Part shown: one piece after another, positions 11,149 to 28,400 of the stretch
Numbering within the stretch: the stretch's first letter is position 1
Layout: each line of letters begins with the position of its first letter
From: Hydrogenobacter sp. T-8
Lineage (GTDB): Bacteria > Aquificota > Aquificia > Aquificales > Aquificaceae
DNA: 64,000 nucleotides
NCBI RefSeq assembly: GCF_011006175.1
Contig: NZ_CP048795.1
Span: forward strand, 434,001 to 498,000
Direction of reading: 5' to 3'
Notes under the pieces: model-generated
The model's input: only the letters and a program-made list of their open reading frames with translations
Told to the model about the DNA's origin: nothing
Databases searched by the model: none
Made by a program: the position numbers and the translations under genes

Positions 11149-11468
11149 ATAGGCAACTTAGAAAGGAAGTTTCAACTCCACACGGTAGATTAGCAACTGT
11201 AAAGGAAAAGGCGAGCAATAGTGTTGAGAAAGGTAGTTTCAACTCCACACGGTAGATTAGCAACAGCTATTAGAAAATGCTTGATAGATAAGCATTTGCT
11301 AAGTTTCAACTCCACACGGTAGATTAGCAACTTCTAAATTTACCCATGCAAGACCGCCACCCCTCGCAGTTTCAACTCCACACGGTAGATTAGCAACTGT
11401 AATAATGGAACAGGTTAAACAAACCCCACCTCAAAACTGGTTTCAACTCCACACGGTAGATTAGCAAC
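11129..11468 (-). CRISPR. CRISPR array: five intact repeats and one degenerate terminal repeat
   Basis: Five identical 29-nt repeats lie at 11169-11197, 11236-11264, 11303-11331, 11369-11397 and 11440-11468. On the plus strand each begins GTTTCAACTCC and ends GATTAGCAAC. The four spacers are 38, 38, 37 and 42 nt. A sixth copy at 11129-11157 matches at 22 of 29 positions and is only 11 nt from the next repeat. Read on the minus strand the repeat ends in GTTGAAAC, the 8-nt handle type of type I-B/III crRNAs. A strong minus-strand promoter at 11489-11517 and the decayed repeat at the opposite end agree on leftward transcription. No cas genes are in the window. Confidence 0.96.
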
Positions 11469-21793: not shown

Positions 21794-22340
21794 TTATTGA
21801 GGGAATGTAACTTGCAAAGTTCTAACTGTGCAGTTGGTAAAAAGATCATTGCAAGCTCTCACCACTATATAGCCGTTGCCTCTGGTTGTAATAGCCTTTG
21901 ATGTAGGAGAAGCGGTGCTACCACGAACTTTGCAGAGAGTGGAAGGCGTGCCGAGTAGGTTTCTTACCTCGCACTCAAGCACACCACTTGACCCACAACC
22001 TGTAAAAATTTGAAATCCGGGTCCGCAATTGCTCTGAGCTAGTCTGTAGAGACCGGTAAGGGGTGATGCAGGGACCTCTGGCTTATCATACTCAAAAAAA
22101 CTCAATGTGATAGTTTCCTGTAGCTGAGCCACTCAAGGATACGCTCCAGCTTATGCTATAGGTGTTCCCAACTTGAATGTTATTGCTGGGTGATATGCTG
22201 AGGGAAGTTATGCTTATTGTTCCACCACCACCGCCACCACCCCCTACAGGCAAACCTATGTCTCCACCGCCACCTCCTCCACCGCAGGAGAAGGCAAAAA
22301 GTGCAAGGGCTGAAAGTCCTGCTAAGGTAGCTTTTCTCAT
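21794..22340 (-). pseudogene. Poly-glycine lipoprotein with Ig-like domain, frameshifted in a T7 run
   Basis: The first part (22340-22092, 82 residues) starts MRKATLAGLSALALFAFSC followed by Gly repeats: a lipoprotein signal peptide with lipobox cysteine at 19 and two glycine runs, then a beta-rich ITSLSISPSNNIQVGNTYSI segment. At a run of seven T (minus strand, near 22095) the frame meets TGA, while a second frame (EYDKPEVPASPLTGLYRL and onward) continues to 21794. Removing one T joins them into a 181-residue protein that ends in a cysteine-containing beta domain. It is a mutated, phase-variable or mis-assembled cell-surface lipoprotein. It diverges from the CARF gene. Confidence 0.7.
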
Positions 22341-22390: not shown

Positions 22391-22406
22391 TGTCAGAAAT
22401 CTGACA
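22391..22406. promoter_or_regulatory. Inverted repeat between the lipoprotein and CARF genes
   Basis: TGTCAGA-AA-TCTGACA is a perfect 7-bp inverted repeat in the 90-bp divergent region, 25 bp before the CARF GTG start. TATATT (22417-22422) could be the -10 of the CARF operon, which would put this repeat over its -35 region, as for a repressor site. Confidence 0.5.
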
Positions 22407-22430: not shown

Positions 22431-23177
22431 GTGAGAACCGCAGAAGTTCAAAAAAACCTAAGGCAACTTTTGGGAGACATAAAAAGTAAGGAAGGTTTGG
22501 CTATAGTCATATTGGTAGCCCTCTTCTATGGGTGGTTTCCAGATAGCATAAAAGACCTCTTAGGTGAGCTATTGCCAAACGAATGGGTGTCTCTCATTCT
22601 CTTGGTTTTGTCCATCCTCATTCTCCTAATACTCTACTGGCTTTTGAAACGTTTAATAAGCAAAATAGCAGGGGTTAAATATGAAGTGGAAACTTACGAC
22701 CAGCAAGAGCTGAAGAAGGTGAAGGTGCTAATGATGGGATTAAGTATACCTCGTCTTGACCCAAAGCAAGGTCATAATTGGAGTCAGCAGGAGTTTTTGA
22801 TAAAAAAGTGCTTGGAACAAGGTGCTAAGTTAAAGAAAGTTGTAGTAATTCCTTCTCCAGAAAGTGTAAAATACTCTAAGGAGTTTGTTGAATACATGCG
22901 GACAAATGCAGAGATAGAACACCACATTTTTGAATTTAGTGAGGCAGTGGACTATGAGGATATGTTGGGCTTACAGAGAACTTTCAACAAAGCAATAGAA
23001 AGTCTCAAGGCACAGGGCTACAAGGAAAAGGAAATCTTAATAGACATAACCGCTGGGACTAAAACTTTTAGCGTGGTAGCCTCTTCTTTGACTTTTGACA
23101 ATGATATTCGCATGTGCTATGTGAACAACAAAAAGCAGGTGGTTATCTTTGATATGGTAGTAGTCAAAGAAGACTAA
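22431..23177 (+). CDS. Membrane-anchored CARF-like protein (putative cyclic oligoadenylate sensor)
   Basis: A 248-residue protein with two predicted membrane helices (about 21-38 and 51-75), a basic linker, and a cytosolic Rossmann-like domain from about 97. That domain contains VKVLMMGLSIPRLDP (first strand and loop) and ILIDITAGTKTFSVVAS (202-218); the D-I-T-x-G-T-K-x-[FM]-S motif is characteristic of CARF/Card1-Can2-like ligand domains. CARF proteins bind cyclic oligoadenylates made by Cas10. A TM-CARF protein (Cam1) is known to act at the membrane; this one has two helices and no separate nuclease domain. It heads the CalpS/T/L gene block, 19 bp before the next gene. The GTG start is inferred. 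Confidence 0.75.
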   Translation: MRTAEVQKNLRQLLGDIKSKEGLAIVILVALFYGWFPDSIKDLLGELLPNEWVSLILLVLSILILLILYWLLKRLISKIAGVKYEVETYDQQELKKVKVLMMGLSIPRLDPKQGHNWSQQEFLIKKCLEQGAKLKKVVVIPSPESVKYSKEFVEYMRTNAEIEHHIFEFSEAVDYEDMLGLQRTFNKAIESLKAQGYKEKEILIDITAGTKTFSVVASSLTFDNDIRMCYVNNKKQVVIFDMVVVKED

Positions 23178-23196: not shown

Positions 23197-23649
23197 ATGG
23201 AAAAGCTCAAAGGTTTTGAGAAACTTTTTGAGAAAAAGTTAGGGGACGAAGAGAAAATCGTAGCTTCTGGGGAGAGGTTCTTGGGGGTTTTTACCGGTGA
23301 GACCTTATCAAGGCTTGAAGACCTTCTCAGGTTAGACCTTGGAGTATACAAGACAAGAAGGAGAAGACCTTTTATAGGAAAGCTTGAAAGGGACTTTTAC
23401 CTTATTGTCTTTCTAACTACAAAAACCTACTCAAAACGCAGGGTAGACCTCAGCCTTTGCTATAGGGGTAAAAATAAAGCATGTCAAAGCCTTGATGTAG
23501 AGTGCTTTATTTTAAGAGACAGAAACAGACAAGAGGTGCTTGCCTATATGGTGCATAAGGATAGGTTTAGCCAGTTTAAATACGAATTCTGTGGCACATG
23601 TAGAGACCTTGAGTTTCTTGATAGCTTAAGAAGGGAGTATTTTAGATGA
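23197..23649 (+). CDS. Unrecognised 150-residue protein in the CARF/Calp block
   Basis: I do not recognise this protein. It has 150 residues, is basic and soluble, without signal or membrane segment. The middle is beta-rich (DFYLIVFLTTKTYSKRR) and the C-terminal half has five cysteines (LCYRGKNKAC, VECFILRD and EFCGTC), which could bind zinc. It is coupled by ATGA to the sigma-like gene and lies 19 bp after the CARF gene, so it is probably part of the same unit. TATAAT at 23180-23185 could give an internal promoter. Possible roles, all speculative: a transcription co-factor, an anti-sigma element, or an RNA-binding effector. Confidence 0.7.
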   Translation: MEKLKGFEKLFEKKLGDEEKIVASGERFLGVFTGETLSRLEDLLRLDLGVYKTRRRRPFIGKLERDFYLIVFLTTKTYSKRRVDLSLCYRGKNKACQSLDVECFILRDRNRQEVLAYMVHKDRFSQFKYEFCGTCRDLEFLDSLRREYFR

Positions 23650-24086
23650 AAGACTACAAACAACTTATCTCTGGCTTTTTGTATGGTGGTGTAAAGGAAG
23701 AGAACTATATGAAAAAGCTAATAAGGTCCTCGTTGAGCCAGTATATGGATGCCTTGCTAAGGAGAAAATTCGGAGATGACTACGAGGAAGAAGTCCTATC
23801 TGAGCTGAGGCTTAGGCTAATAAACAACAAAGACTATCTGCAGAGGTTAGAGTATATAAACCTACATTATTTGAAAACTCTCATAAGAAACTTCTTAATA
23901 GACATTATAAACGGTGAGAGGATAGAGGTTTACAGTCTTCAGGAACAGGTTTTTGAGGAAGAGAATGCCAAGCCTGTATTATACGAAGATATACTGAGGG
24001 ATGAGAGAAACTCTTTTGCGGATGCAGAGGGTGGCACGCTTTTTGAGACACTTATGAAAAACCTCAAGGATAGAGTGATACGATAG
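23646..24086 (+). CDS. calpS: CalpS-like sigma factor, region 2 part (split gene)
   Basis: The 146-residue frame carries a helical domain; YINLHYLKTLIRNFLIDIIN (about 75-94) resembles sigma region 2 of ECF-like factors. A linker with many acidic residues follows, then LKDRVIR just before the TAG at 24084-24086. The next frame (24086-24313) continues exactly with the sigma region 4 pattern, so the two together make a two-domain sigma of about 222 residues if one base is added near 24080. Known CalpS is an ECF-type sigma factor held by CalpT and released by CalpL cleavage. Whether this copy is broken, mis-sequenced or made as two chains is unresolved. Confidence 0.68.
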   Translation: MKDYKQLISGFLYGGVKEENYMKKLIRSSLSQYMDALLRRKFGDDYEEEVLSELRLRLINNKDYLQRLEYINLHYLKTLIRNFLIDIINGERIEVYSLQEQVFEEENAKPVLYEDILRDERNSFADAEGGTLFETLMKNLKDRVIR

Positions 24087-24313
24087 TGCTGTGCTATTAC
24101 TTTTATAAGTATCTGTATAACTCGGAGATGGAGCTGAGGGATATTTCTAAGGATAACCTGTACAAGAGGTGGGAAAGGTTAAGAAAGGGTAAGTTGAGGG
24201 AGATTTTAAGTGATGCTTCTGCGGAGGAGATTAGGGTTGTGGCGGAGAGGTTTCTGTCAGAGGTTTGCCAGAAAAAGGGTTATATATGTAATGAAAGAGG
24301 AGAGCTGTCATGA
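24086..24313 (+). CDS. calpS: CalpS-like sigma factor, region 4 part
   Basis: A 75-residue frame starting at GTG 24086, which overlaps the preceding TAG by one base (TAGTG), a layout that permits re-initiation. MELRDISKDNLYKRWERLRKGKLREIL has the helix-turn-helix of sigma region 4 that contacts the -35 box. A tail of about 30 residues follows. It is coupled by ATGA to the CalpT-like gene. Fusion to the preceding frame needs one extra nucleotide; the frame is open back to 24074, so the break lies between 24074 and 24086. Confidence 0.62.
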   Translation: MLCYYFYKYLYNSEMELRDISKDNLYKRWERLRKGKLREILSDASAEEIRVVAERFLSEVCQKKGYICNERGELS

Positions 24314-25083
24314 GTTTGGAATTGGAGCTTTTGGAGATATACGAGAAGAACTTGAAAGAGGGTTCTGATAAACTTGTAGAGGTCCAGCACAAGAAACCGC
24401 CTAAGTGTGGGCAGATAAGGGAACTCTGGAGCGTGCCCGTAGAGCGATTTCTAATATTGGAAGAAACAGGCGAGGGGTTGTATCTTACAGTTCCGATGAC
24501 CTCTTACCTACAGCTCTTACCAAACAATGCACCAATGTATGAGATTAAAGGGCGTGGTTTAAGACTGGGAGTTGTGCCGGTGTGGGACTATCTTAGACAA
24601 GAATTAATCACCACATATAGCCAAGTTATCGGAGTAATATCTCAGGATCAGTTGGAAAGGATAAAGAACTTCCTTAGAGAAAGCCAGAGTATTCCGTGGC
24701 ATACAAGGAGATTTATTAAACTCAATTCTAAGCGTTGGGCAAAGTGGACCATGTATTCACTGTTGGCTCAGGCGGAGCTTGCAGAAAGGGAAGAGGCGCA
24801 AGTTATAAGGCTTTCACCAGATACAGAAAAGGCTCTTGAAGAGATACGCACTTATGCTCTCGCAGCGGATAATAGATACTTCAAGGTAGGGAATTTCTTT
24901 GTGGTTTTGGAGGAGGGTTTGCTAAGGCTATACTTGCCTATAGAGTTTGTGGGTAAGGTTGTTAGGGTGCTTTTGGGTTCTGTGGTGGTCTTTGAGGGTG
25001 AGGTGGAGTCTCCAAGGTTGGAGATTCTTGGAAACTTCTTTGGAATAAACATTCCGGAGGAATTAAAGGTTGTGGAACTTTAG
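24310..25083 (+). CDS. calpT: CalpT-like MazF-fold anti-sigma protein
   Basis: The 257-residue protein has a MazF/PemK-like beta-barrel: KPPKCGQIRELWSVP begins the domain near residue 29, YLTVPMTSYLQLLP follows, and SQVIGVISQDQLERI closes it (about 100-115). In the characterised system CalpT is a MazF homologue that binds the sigma factor CalpS; activated CalpL cuts it and frees CalpS. The part from about 175 (LSPDTEKALEEIRTYALA and a beta-rich tail ending at 257) is additional. Gene order and ATGA coupling to the sigma part, plus a 14-bp overlap with the Lon-SAVED gene, support this identity. RNase activity cannot be judged from sequence. Confidence 0.75.
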   Translation: MSLELELLEIYEKNLKEGSDKLVEVQHKKPPKCGQIRELWSVPVERFLILEETGEGLYLTVPMTSYLQLLPNNAPMYEIKGRGLRLGVVPVWDYLRQELITTYSQVIGVISQDQLERIKNFLRESQSIPWHTRRFIKLNSKRWAKWTMYSLLAQAELAEREEAQVIRLSPDTEKALEEIRTYALAADNRYFKVGNFFVVLEEGLLRLYLPIEFVGKVVRVLLGSVVVFEGEVESPRLEILGNFFGINIPEELKVVEL

Positions 25084-26536
25084 CCTTTTCAAGGAAGAAG
25101 ACCTTATAGAGTTTCTCCATAGGGGAGACTTGGAAGAAGTCCTTGTAGACCTTATAAGGCAGTGGGATTATCTAAGCCCTGGGGTGCATTTTGCTCTGGT
25201 AAAGTATCTACGCCTTTCTGAAAGGTATTTTGATGAGGAAAAACTTGCCAAGGCTTTGGGTATAAAAAAGGCGGTTGCAAAGGCACTTTTGGAAAATCCC
25301 TATGTGGAGTTTGAGTTTCCTGCGGTATCTGAAAGGGATGGCAAGCTAATAAGGGGTCTGGCAATAAAGGATACACCAGAGGTCTTTTGCAACCTACCAG
25401 AAAAGAAAAGGTATATCACTCCAGTGGTGGAATATCTGCGTTCCAAAGGCTTTGTGTCTGGGTCTGTTAGTGTTATCTTTGACAGTGAGTTTGTGGGAAA
25501 CAGCTTTCAACTTTCTTTGACCTTGGCTTTGTGTATGGATGCGGAAAAGAAAAGGCTACCACCAAACCTCTGTTGGAGCGGTGGAGTTAGGAAGGATGGT
25601 AGCATAGTGAAGGTGGATTCTTTGGATAAAAAGTCTGAGGTGTGTGAAAGGTTCAACATGCACTTGGCTATGCCCTTTCATCTTCCTAAGGTGGATGACC
25701 TTTTGAATTGGCTAAGTGCAAATATTGTGGAAGTTCCTGTGGCGGTTTCCATTGACCACCTAAGGCTTGAGGAGTTCTTCCATAAGGAGGAAAACCTACT
25801 AAACTTAAAAAATATCCATCGCATAGACCCATCAAAACTTGTCATACAAACAGGTCAGCTAAGTGGTATCAGATGGCAGGAAACTGCAAAGAGGTTTTTT
25901 GGGCTCATAAGCGTTCTTGACTATACCCTCATAGGTAGGCTAAAAGCTCATATTGTGGTAAACGGACCTGCGAGCCTTTCCTTTGCCTTGGGAATTCTCT
26001 ACGGACACACAAGACCCTCTGTTTTCTATCATTACCATAGCAGTGAGAGAAAATACTTTCCCATTGACCTACAAAACACAAGGGAGATAAAGGAACACAC
26101 AAGGGACTACCAATTTGTGAAAAGTGAACTAAAAGAAGGTGGAGAAGACCTTGCGGTAGTCCTCTTTTTCTCCCACCACAATCCCACTGCGGACGTGGAG
26201 CATTTCTTAGAGAGCAAGGGCATTAAGGCAGACCTTTTGCTCCTTACCACAGAATCTTATAGGGGAAACCTTGAGCCGAGCACTTTCAAGAGGATAGCTC
26301 AAGAAATCTCCTCTGCGGTGCAAGAGGTAAAGGGTAAGAAAGCCTATAAGGCAATTCACTTTTTCTTTTCCTGCCCTGTCGCTTTGGCATATCTTTTTGG
26401 CGTAGCCTTTGGACACTACGACAAGGGATACATATACAACTACAGTAGCAAAGACATAACCTACGAGCAGGTGCTTGCCCTTGAGTTTCTGAGAAGTTTG
26501 CGAGAGGGAGGATACATTATAAATATGGGAGGGTAG
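25070..26536 (+). CDS. calpL: CalpL-like Lon protease fused to a SAVED domain
   Basis: The 488-residue protein has an N-terminal helical part (1-75), a Lon-type peptidase domain (about 80-235) and a C-terminal SAVED domain (about 265-485). The protease shows FVGNSFQLSLTLAL with putative nucleophile Ser145 and, about 43 residues on, SLDKKSEV with the general-base lysine (187 or 188), the Ser-Lys dyad spacing of Lon. The AAA+ ATPase of housekeeping Lon is absent. The SAVED part repeats a Rossmann-like pattern: HIVVNGPASLSFALGILYGH and HFFFSCPVALAYLFGVAFGH. Such a fusion is CalpL, which oligomerises on binding cA4 and cleaves CalpT. The TTG start has GGAGG 9 nt upstream. Confidence 0.87.
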   Translation: MWNFSLFKEEDLIEFLHRGDLEEVLVDLIRQWDYLSPGVHFALVKYLRLSERYFDEEKLAKALGIKKAVAKALLENPYVEFEFPAVSERDGKLIRGLAIKDTPEVFCNLPEKKRYITPVVEYLRSKGFVSGSVSVIFDSEFVGNSFQLSLTLALCMDAEKKRLPPNLCWSGGVRKDGSIVKVDSLDKKSEVCERFNMHLAMPFHLPKVDDLLNWLSANIVEVPVAVSIDHLRLEEFFHKEENLLNLKNIHRIDPSKLVIQTGQLSGIRWQETAKRFFGLISVLDYTLIGRLKAHIVVNGPASLSFALGILYGHTRPSVFYHYHSSERKYFPIDLQNTREIKEHTRDYQFVKSELKEGGEDLAVVLFFSHHNPTADVEHFLESKGIKADLLLLTTESYRGNLEPSTFKRIAQEISSAVQEVKGKKAYKAIHFFFSCPVALAYLFGVAFGHYDKGYIYNYSSKDITYEQVLALEFLRSLREGGYIINMGG

Positions 26537-26642: not shown

Positions 26643-27065
26643 ATGGAATGGATACTTTTACTGCTGGCAGTCCTCTTTCTCCTCTGGAAGATAAAAGATG
26701 CCAACGACGAAGCCTTCTCTTCTAACGTGCACCCTGGAACTTCTAACCTCTCAGAGCAGTGGGAAGACATAAGCCCAGACCAAGCAAGCCCTTTACACTC
26801 CCACAGCCTTCTTGAAGATGAAAACAGGGGAATGTGGGACAGCCACTCATCCTTTGACTACAATACCACAAGAAGATGGGACAGCCACGATGACTGTGAT
26901 ATTTCCAGTGCCATGTGGGACCCATCATGCCCTATGTATCATGTCTTTAACGACCATTGGAACTCAAGCAACGACAGTTGGTGGAGCTCCTCCAATGACT
27001 GGGACAGCGGTAGCTCTTCCTGGAATAGCTGGGGTTCTTCCGGCTGGGAGTATCCCTCGGCATAG
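26643..27065 (+). CDS. Small membrane-anchored Trp/Ser/Asp-rich protein
   Basis: The 140-residue protein starts MEWILLLLAVLFLLWKIKDAN, a single N-terminal helix (3-15), probably an uncleaved anchor. The rest is low-complexity and rich in Trp, Ser, Asp, Asn and His, with repeats of the type WDSH and SSNDWDSGSSSWNSWG in the last third. AGGAGGT lies 5 nt before the ATG. I do not recognise the family. It lies about 100 bp after calpL in the same direction and directly before the tnpB element. It could be a membrane-acting effector, or an unrelated gene of a duplicated family; the decayed copy just upstream shows recent local turnover. Confidence 0.6.
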   Translation: MEWILLLLAVLFLLWKIKDANDEAFSSNVHPGTSNLSEQWEDISPDQASPLHSHSLLEDENRGMWDSHSSFDYNTTRRWDSHDDCDISSAMWDPSCPMYHVFNDHWNSSNDSWWSSSNDWDSGSSSWNSWGSSGWEYPSA

Positions 27066-27069
27066 ACAA

Positions 27070-28400
27070 ATATCCCTATTAGGGACACTTATCCACACCT
27101 CAGGTTTAGGGACTGACTGAAAGTATGGATTTCTTTCAATCAACAGGAGTAGCCTTACTCCAAAGACACTTATGCCGCTCATCAAACAGGTTTCGTGAGA
27201 ATAATTCTACCTGCTTGATAAGGGCTTGCTCCATACGACGTAAATGCAAGCTCCACTTAGCACGGCTAAGCAGGTTCCTGCTTGCGTTCACATCCGCATG
27301 AAGTCTTTTGCCACATAGCTTGCACTCAAACTCACTCCTTGTCCTTCTGTTGTCTTTGTCCACATATCCACAGTTGCTACATGCTTGTGAACTATAGGCA
27401 GGATTTATATACACTACCTCTATGCCATATTCCTCGCTTATGTCTCTTAACTTCCTCCTTATCTCCCCAAGCCCGAACCTTATAAGCACCCTCTTTACTG
27501 ATTTTGGAAAGTTGTTTATTACCCTTTGCAAAAATCCTCTAAGGTCTTCAAGCACAAGTCTTTGTGGCTTGTATAGGTATATCACCCTGTTTATTATCCT
27601 TCTGACTTCACTCTTCACATATCCACTTAGCTTGCTTTGAAGTCTTACATACCTCTTGCTTTCTGTTGGCTTTTTACCTGCTCTTTGCATCTCCCTCTGT
27701 ATCCTGTCTATTCTATCTGCATACTCTTTTACCCTGAGATAAAAGCCTCTACCAAAGAGGTCTCCTCTGTCTGAAACAAAAAGACACTCCATCCCAAAGT
27801 CAAGGGCTATATCTCCACTGAAAACTATGTCTTTTCTTTCTATCTCCTTCACAAGTCTTAATGTGCCATCCTCAGATATCTGAACCATGCTTGTTAGCTT
27901 TCCACCTCTTTCTTTGAAGTATTCATGAAGTCCTACAGGCAAGTATATGGGCTTTCTCCTTTCATGTGTAGATAGCCTTATCCATAGGTCAAAGGCTTTG
28001 GCTTTCTTTGGCTTTTCCAGTAAGGCACATTTACTGTCTAAAAGCATAGAAACACTTCTAAAACTTGGCTTTTTCCAGCTTTTGAGAATATGCTTGAAAA
28101 CCTTTTTGGCAAGCAGTCTTTCCTCTGTCTCTATCTCATACTCATACTTTTTTCTGTCTTTATCTATCCACAGGGCTTTTTGGAATAAGCCACTCCTTTC
28201 TGGAGTTGAGATAAAGGAGAACTCTTTTTGTCTTTTCAGGAAGTGTTGAGCTAAGGACTATCTCTTTGAACCTTTCTTGGAGATTGCCAATAAAACTTTC
28301 CAGTGTAGGGACTACCACATGGTATTGGATAGTGGACTTGAACCTTTCTGAGAGGGGGCAGTTTAAGTGTTTTTGGACTTGAATAGCCCTATACATAGGG
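27070..28400 (-). mobile_element. IS200/IS605-type element carrying only tnpB, with terminal hairpins
   Basis: A tnpB-like gene lies between two short palindromes with the same CCCTA/TAGGG stem: TCCCTA-T-TAGGGA (27073-27085) on the right-end side of tnpB and CCCTAT-AC-ATAGGG (28387-28400) at its 5' end. Subterminal hairpins are what IS200/IS605 transposases recognise. No tnpA is present, so the element is non-autonomous. Exact ends are not defined. Confidence 0.6.
27136..28396 (-). pseudogene. tnpB: TnpB-family RNA-guided nuclease, frameshifted
   Basis: The N-terminal 78 residues (from ATG 28396) end at 28160, while the following RuvC part continues in another frame to 27136. The frames join at a CCAAAAAGCC tract (about 28174-28183); removing one A gives a 419-residue TnpB. 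RuvC residues are present: ALDFGMECLF (Asp), LVLEDLRGF (Glu) and HADVNASRNL (Asp), with zinc finger CSNCGYVD and CKLCGKRL. TnpB cuts DNA with a guide RNA from the element's right end and helps keep the element in place. If the A5 run is an assembly error the gene may be intact. Confidence 0.85.

Follow-up and report, generated by a model that had tools for sequence, protein, structure and literature searches.

A CARF protein with a two-helix membrane hairpin, encoded beside Calp genes in Hydrogenobacter sp. T-8, is a probable type III CRISPR effector

Organization of the locus

The window analyzed here is a 64,000-nucleotide stretch of the Hydrogenobacter sp. T-8 genome (contig NZ_CP048795.1, positions 434,001 to 498,000, forward strand). 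Within it, a gene for a predicted membrane protein with a C-terminal CARF domain, which we refer to as TM-CARF, is followed on the same strand by P150 and by calpS-like, calpT-like and calpL genes (Table 1). TM-CARF and P150 are separated by 19 bp, the five-gene order from TM-CARF to calpL is the same in three congeneric relatives, and CalpS–CalpL–TM-CARF neighborhoods are also found in several other genera.

Table 1. Features of the locus, numbered from the first nucleotide of the window.
Feature	Position	Strand	Description or basis
CRISPR array	11160..11468	+	repeat matches other arrays of the genome, one of which adjoins the type III-B cas genes
Poly-Gly lipoprotein gene	21794..22340	-	divergent; a T run has one T more than in relatives, which breaks the gene here
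16-bp perfect palindrome TGTCAGAAATCTGACA	22391..22406	.	between the lipoprotein and TM-CARF genes, in the promoter region
TM-CARF protein	22431..23177	+	248 aa, GTG start
TM helix 1, residues 20-44	22488..22562	+	AF2 helix, hydropathy; kept in relatives
W35-F-P-D38 motif within TM1	22533..22544	+	residue 38 acidic in all 34 homologs (31 D, 3 E)
TM helix 2, residues 51-80	22581..22670	+	hydropathy, AF2; runs into the CARF domain
CARF domain, residues 97-245	22719..23165	+	AF2, Foldseek, VIA-align 2
DITAGTKTFS motif, residues 205-214	23043..23072	+	CARF D-x-T-G-G-x-K signature; sequence, alignment
P150	23197..23649	+	150 aa, Cys motif; conserved gene just upstream of calpS
calpS-like sigma factor gene	23646..24313	+	PDLC01153; net 2-nt insertion gives halves 23646-24086 and 24086-24313
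calpT-like gene	24310..25083	+	CRISPR-T PDLC01048, Unk_02 PDLC01140
calpL, Lon-SAVED protease	25070..26536	+	PADLOC E 7e-113; matches solved CalpL 7qda, E 2.8e-32

P150 is present in 28 of 136 Aquificota genomes, and when its position was compared by hand with that of CalpL it proved to lie just upstream and in the same direction in 24 of the 28, which makes it the fourth gene in many Aquificota Calp operons. It carries a conserved RRPF motif and the Cys pattern C..C...CxxC, which together suggest a metal site. Profile and sequence searches, including Pfam and PADLOC, assigned it to no known family, and its single-sequence AlphaFold2 (AF2) model, which is of low confidence (pLDDT 64), gave no structural match above Z 4.5. 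Tandem duplicates of P150 occur in some genomes (genus g8).

The calpS-like gene is intact in three relatives (L047, L048 and L049). In the window, the stop codon of its 5′ half shares nucleotides with a GTG start (TAGTG). Either reinitiation could allow both halves to be translated, or the gene could be broken. The frameshifts in calpS and in the lipoprotein gene may each be a real mutation or an assembly error. Beyond calpL we noted a small ORF (26643-27065) whose product is acidic, rich in Trp and Ser, and has a membrane helix at its N-terminus, and homologs of which adjoin CalpL or TM-CARF in several genomes, and a TnpB-like gene with a Cas12f1-like TNB domain (27136-28047, minus strand).

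On the other side of TM-CARF, the poly-Gly lipoprotein gene has intact copies in relatives. It is divergent from and within about 100 bp of TM-CARF in G000, G046 and G068, is present as a remnant in G036, and lies nearby in G062; in G045 it stands between cas6 and cas1, and in G025, G027 and G063 it has no TM-CARF neighbor. The gene was also seen to recur near TM-CARF or CRISPR genes across several genera (L049, L055, L054, L132), and another poly-Gly lipoprotein, whose homology to this one is not established, lies 1.3 kb from TM-CARF in G026. The palindrome between the two genes is the sole exact copy in the genome, and two congeners (L048 and L049) have it at the corresponding position; it is a possible operator. 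The TM-CARF mRNA may be leaderless, given the TATATT-like box just before its GTG codon.

The TM-CARF protein

The TM-CARF reading frame is preceded by an in-frame stop, and the position of its start codon (ATG or GTG) is the same in the three congeneric relatives, against which dN/dS is 0.12-0.30, so the gene is under purifying selection. The first-pass annotation had placed two hydrophobic segments near the N-terminus, and two lines of prediction now agree with it: Kyte-Doolittle hydropathy peaks at residues 22-40 (1.77) and 53-71 (2.99), and AF2 models a helix at each location, with an extra N-terminal helix at residues 3-14. At least two hydrophobic peaks are present in all 34 aligned Aquificota homologs, the set to which the conservation counts below also refer, and a few longer ones have more. 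Pfam gave weak hits to DUF3021 and cytochrome b561, each below its cut-off and located on hydrophobic stretches.

The AF2 model, built from a 19-sequence alignment with a mean pLDDT of 86.6, consists of the N-terminal helix, a two-helix hairpin and then a canonical alpha/beta CARF fold. All 50 of the best structural matches that VIA-align 2 listed were CARF-fold entries, with Z-scores of 9.8-15.5 over 116-142 residues. They include Cdn1 (Z 15.5), Can2 (14.7), Cam1 (14.1), Card1 (13.7) and Csm6 (13.6), as well as the ring nucleases Sso2081 and Sis0455 (Z 12-13); Z differences of less than 1 were treated as ties. For Cam1 (8t66), 142 of its 156 residues were aligned, the top coverage among the highest-ranked matches. 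At the sequence level, searching with TM-CARF alone against solved structures gave nothing useful, and a family profile gave only weak matches (E 0.007-0.08). The Rossmann-like CARF fold that the first-pass annotation had proposed for residues 97-245 is thus supported by the model, since the search for a different fold there returned CARF entries throughout the matches listed; a phosphohydrolase or other non-CARF fold was rejected on that evidence. In the model, the helices and the CARF domain fill the chain and there is no enzymatic domain, which makes an enzymatic output unlikely.

The D-I-T-x-G-T-K-T-F-S motif picked out earlier is present as D205-I-T-A-G-T-K-T-F-S214. The first Gly of the CARF signature is thus replaced by Ala (TAGTK), as it is in 6 of the 34 relatives; K211 is kept in 28, and S105, S142 and G209 are identical in every one. 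In a profile alignment with Cam1, the cA4-contacting residues Y180 and T183 (PMC10808066) align with Y230 and N233 of TM-CARF, the latter position being T in 21 of 34 relatives, and Cam1 K160 falls one column away from K211. Some longer relatives of 307-339 aa (L073, L076, L078 and L080) have additional N-terminal hydrophobic segments and SGGTS in place of TGGxK, and mostly adjoin cmr6 or calpL.

Distribution and linkage to type III CRISPR

Two PADLOC models, PDLC01053 ("TM+CARF", E 7e-24) and PDLC01168 ("CARF, 2 TMs", E 1.5e-23), cover nearly the whole of TM-CARF, so the class has already been catalogued; in the literature searched, we found no experiment on a member of either. Homologs occur in 36 of the 136 Aquificota genomes and also in Chlorobi, Nitrospirae, Nitrospinota, Proteobacteria, Acidobacteria, Planctomycetes and other phyla; a search of viral contigs, made with one pattern, matched no relative.

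The family is linked genomically both to type III CRISPR systems and to Calp genes. The neighborhood counts rest on labels from profiles of this genome's own proteins, which divergent csm genes may escape, and are limited by contigs that stop close to the TM-CARF gene. Of 34 Aquificota TM-CARF loci, 14 have CalpL in their flanks and 20 do not; cas10, cmr, cas1 or cas6 is found in the flanks of 16, some of which have CalpL too. At least one link (cas genes, CalpL or a CRISPR array) is present at 26 loci, and a contig scan reaching other phyla found cas or CalpL neighbors at 17 of 22, although most relatives in other phyla lack CalpL in the flanks examined. At several of the other eight Aquificota loci, the neighbors appear, from reading alone, to be related to type III: L051 and L053 have a Csx-like gene and L065 a Cas6-like one. 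We also noted an unassigned protein of 216-224 aa that adjoins cas1 in two genomes and calpL in a third (L005 17206-17856, L049 12680-13354, L132 1969-2628); the L005 copy matched nothing in NCBIfam or PADLOC.

The Hydrogenobacter genome itself has a type III-B locus (C1:313-324 kb), about 130 kb from the TM-CARF operon, that encodes Cas10 with an intact GGDD cyclase motif, Cmr1, Cmr3-6, Cas6, Cas1 and the CARF-HEPN protein Csx1. The repeats of the arrays near the two loci are the same or nearly the same.

Proposed function

Taking fold, helices and genomic context together, we consider it likely that TM-CARF is a type III CRISPR effector, probably a cA4-gated pore of the Cam1/Cap1 kind. We infer cA4 as the ligand because of the correspondence with Cam1 and because the operon includes CalpL, whose homologs bind cA4 (PMC11417357). 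In thermophiles, CalpL has been noted to occur together with another cA4 effector, for example Csx1, Can2 or Cam1 (PMC12751052), a pattern that the pairing of TM-CARF and CalpL in one operon fits. As for output, Cam1 with its one helix and Cap1 with its two are both cA4-activated and depolarizing (PMC10808066, PMC12642688), and by analogy the same output would be the simplest account of TM-CARF.

On this reading, the Cmr complex with Cas10 would detect foreign RNA and make a cyclic oligoadenylate, most likely cA4, which would bind at the interface of CARF domains lying on the cytoplasmic face of the inner membrane. Once occupied, these domains would exert a pull on the paired helices of each hairpin in an assembled, probably tetrameric, oligomer, opening a pore whose wall may include the conserved Asp38 of TM1; the membrane would depolarize and growth would stop, leaving the phage cycle incomplete. 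The same cA4 would presumably activate the co-operonic CalpL, so that one signal would act at the membrane and also, in genomes with an intact calpS, on transcription. Several observations count against parts of this scheme. The operon lies outside the type III locus; one Gly of the CARF signature is Ala; and the Cam1 pore is built from one helix per subunit, so in TM-CARF the conserved Asp may not line the pore. The analogy to Cap1 is likewise weakened by its CARF-like domain, whose fold and assembly are not those of a canonical CARF domain. A wider proposal, in which a two-output cA4 module combines the CARF pore and the divergent lipoprotein with a Calp system that has P150 as its fourth subunit, all under one palindromic operator, is speculative and on balance doubtful.

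The first-pass annotation had left open whether the protein is a membrane effector or a tether for the sensing cascade. The effector is the alternative that we favor. The other, in which TM-CARF would be a membrane anchor or regulator that recruits P150, CalpT or CalpL or tunes their activation, accords with the compact same-strand operon, its conserved order among the congeners and the similar neighborhoods in other genera. Tethering is nevertheless made less likely by the relatives that have no Calp neighbors, namely those at the 20 Aquificota loci and most of those in other phyla. The two proteins also appear separable in their distribution, with the CalpL model matched in 77 of 136 genomes, the weakest matches probably being ordinary Lon, versus 36 for TM-CARF. 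We therefore regard an anchor as unlikely.

A membrane-anchored ring nuclease that switches off cA4 signaling would account for the conserved Ser105 and Lys211 and for the resemblance to Sso2081 and Sis0455, but it is improbable: degradation of cA4 is already an activity of CalpL homologs (PMC11417357), a membrane hairpin bearing a conserved acidic residue would be superfluous in a ring nuclease, and the six relatives without the Lys keep the acidic residue in TM1. That TM-CARF is a degenerate, non-functional remnant in this strain, as the frameshifts in two neighboring genes might suggest, is very improbable given its intact frame and its 88-89% identity to two congeners, with dN/dS of 0.16-0.30 against those two.

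Comparison with known systems

To our knowledge, few membrane effectors of type III CRISPR systems have been studied by experiment: Cam1, Cap1, Csx23 and CorA. TM-CARF belongs to a class that is catalogued in PADLOC but unstudied, and its kind is already known. Its place in an operon with CalpL would permit a test of one cA4 signal with membrane and transcription outputs together.

The genes downstream of TM-CARF are homologs of the CalpL–CalpT–CalpS system of Sulfurihydrogenibium. The described Calp complex is tripartite (PMC11417357), whereas here TM-CARF and P150 precede the Calp genes and calpS is frameshifted; if P150 is a real Calp subunit, the published three-part model would be revised.

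TM-CARF resembles Cam1 of Nitrosococcus halophilus (8t64-8t66) in having an N-terminal membrane part, a C-terminal CARF domain, no enzyme domain and an association with type III CRISPR, although the two are only about 13% identical in the structural alignment. Both also have an acidic residue in the membrane part; it is essential in Cam1 (Asp17; PMC10808066), and residue 38 of TM-CARF appears comparable to this pore Asp, in its presence rather than by an alignment of positions. Cam1 has one 24-residue TM helix in 206 aa, in contrast to the two-helix hairpin in the 248 aa of TM-CARF. This difference, which the first-pass annotation had pointed out, is borne out by AF2, by hydropathy and by the peaks in all relatives, but it does not make TM-CARF new in kind, given the PADLOC "CARF, 2 TMs" model and the two-TM Cap1 (PMC12642688).

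Cap1 is a CARF-like protein that forms a cA4-gated, depolarizing tetrameric pore (PMC12642688), and like TM-CARF it has a short N-terminal segment and two TM helices before its sensor domain, which in Cap1 senses cyclic oligoadenylates. The CARF-like domain of Cap1, however, has a different topology, binds cA4 in a four-fold arrangement and is joined by a DUF4579 domain, whereas the TM-CARF chain ends with a canonical CARF domain and has no DUF4579 among its Pfam matches. A canonical CARF domain on a two-helix hairpin is thus intermediate between the Cam1 and Cap1 designs, and could reveal how a pore is gated by a two-fold, dimeric sensor.
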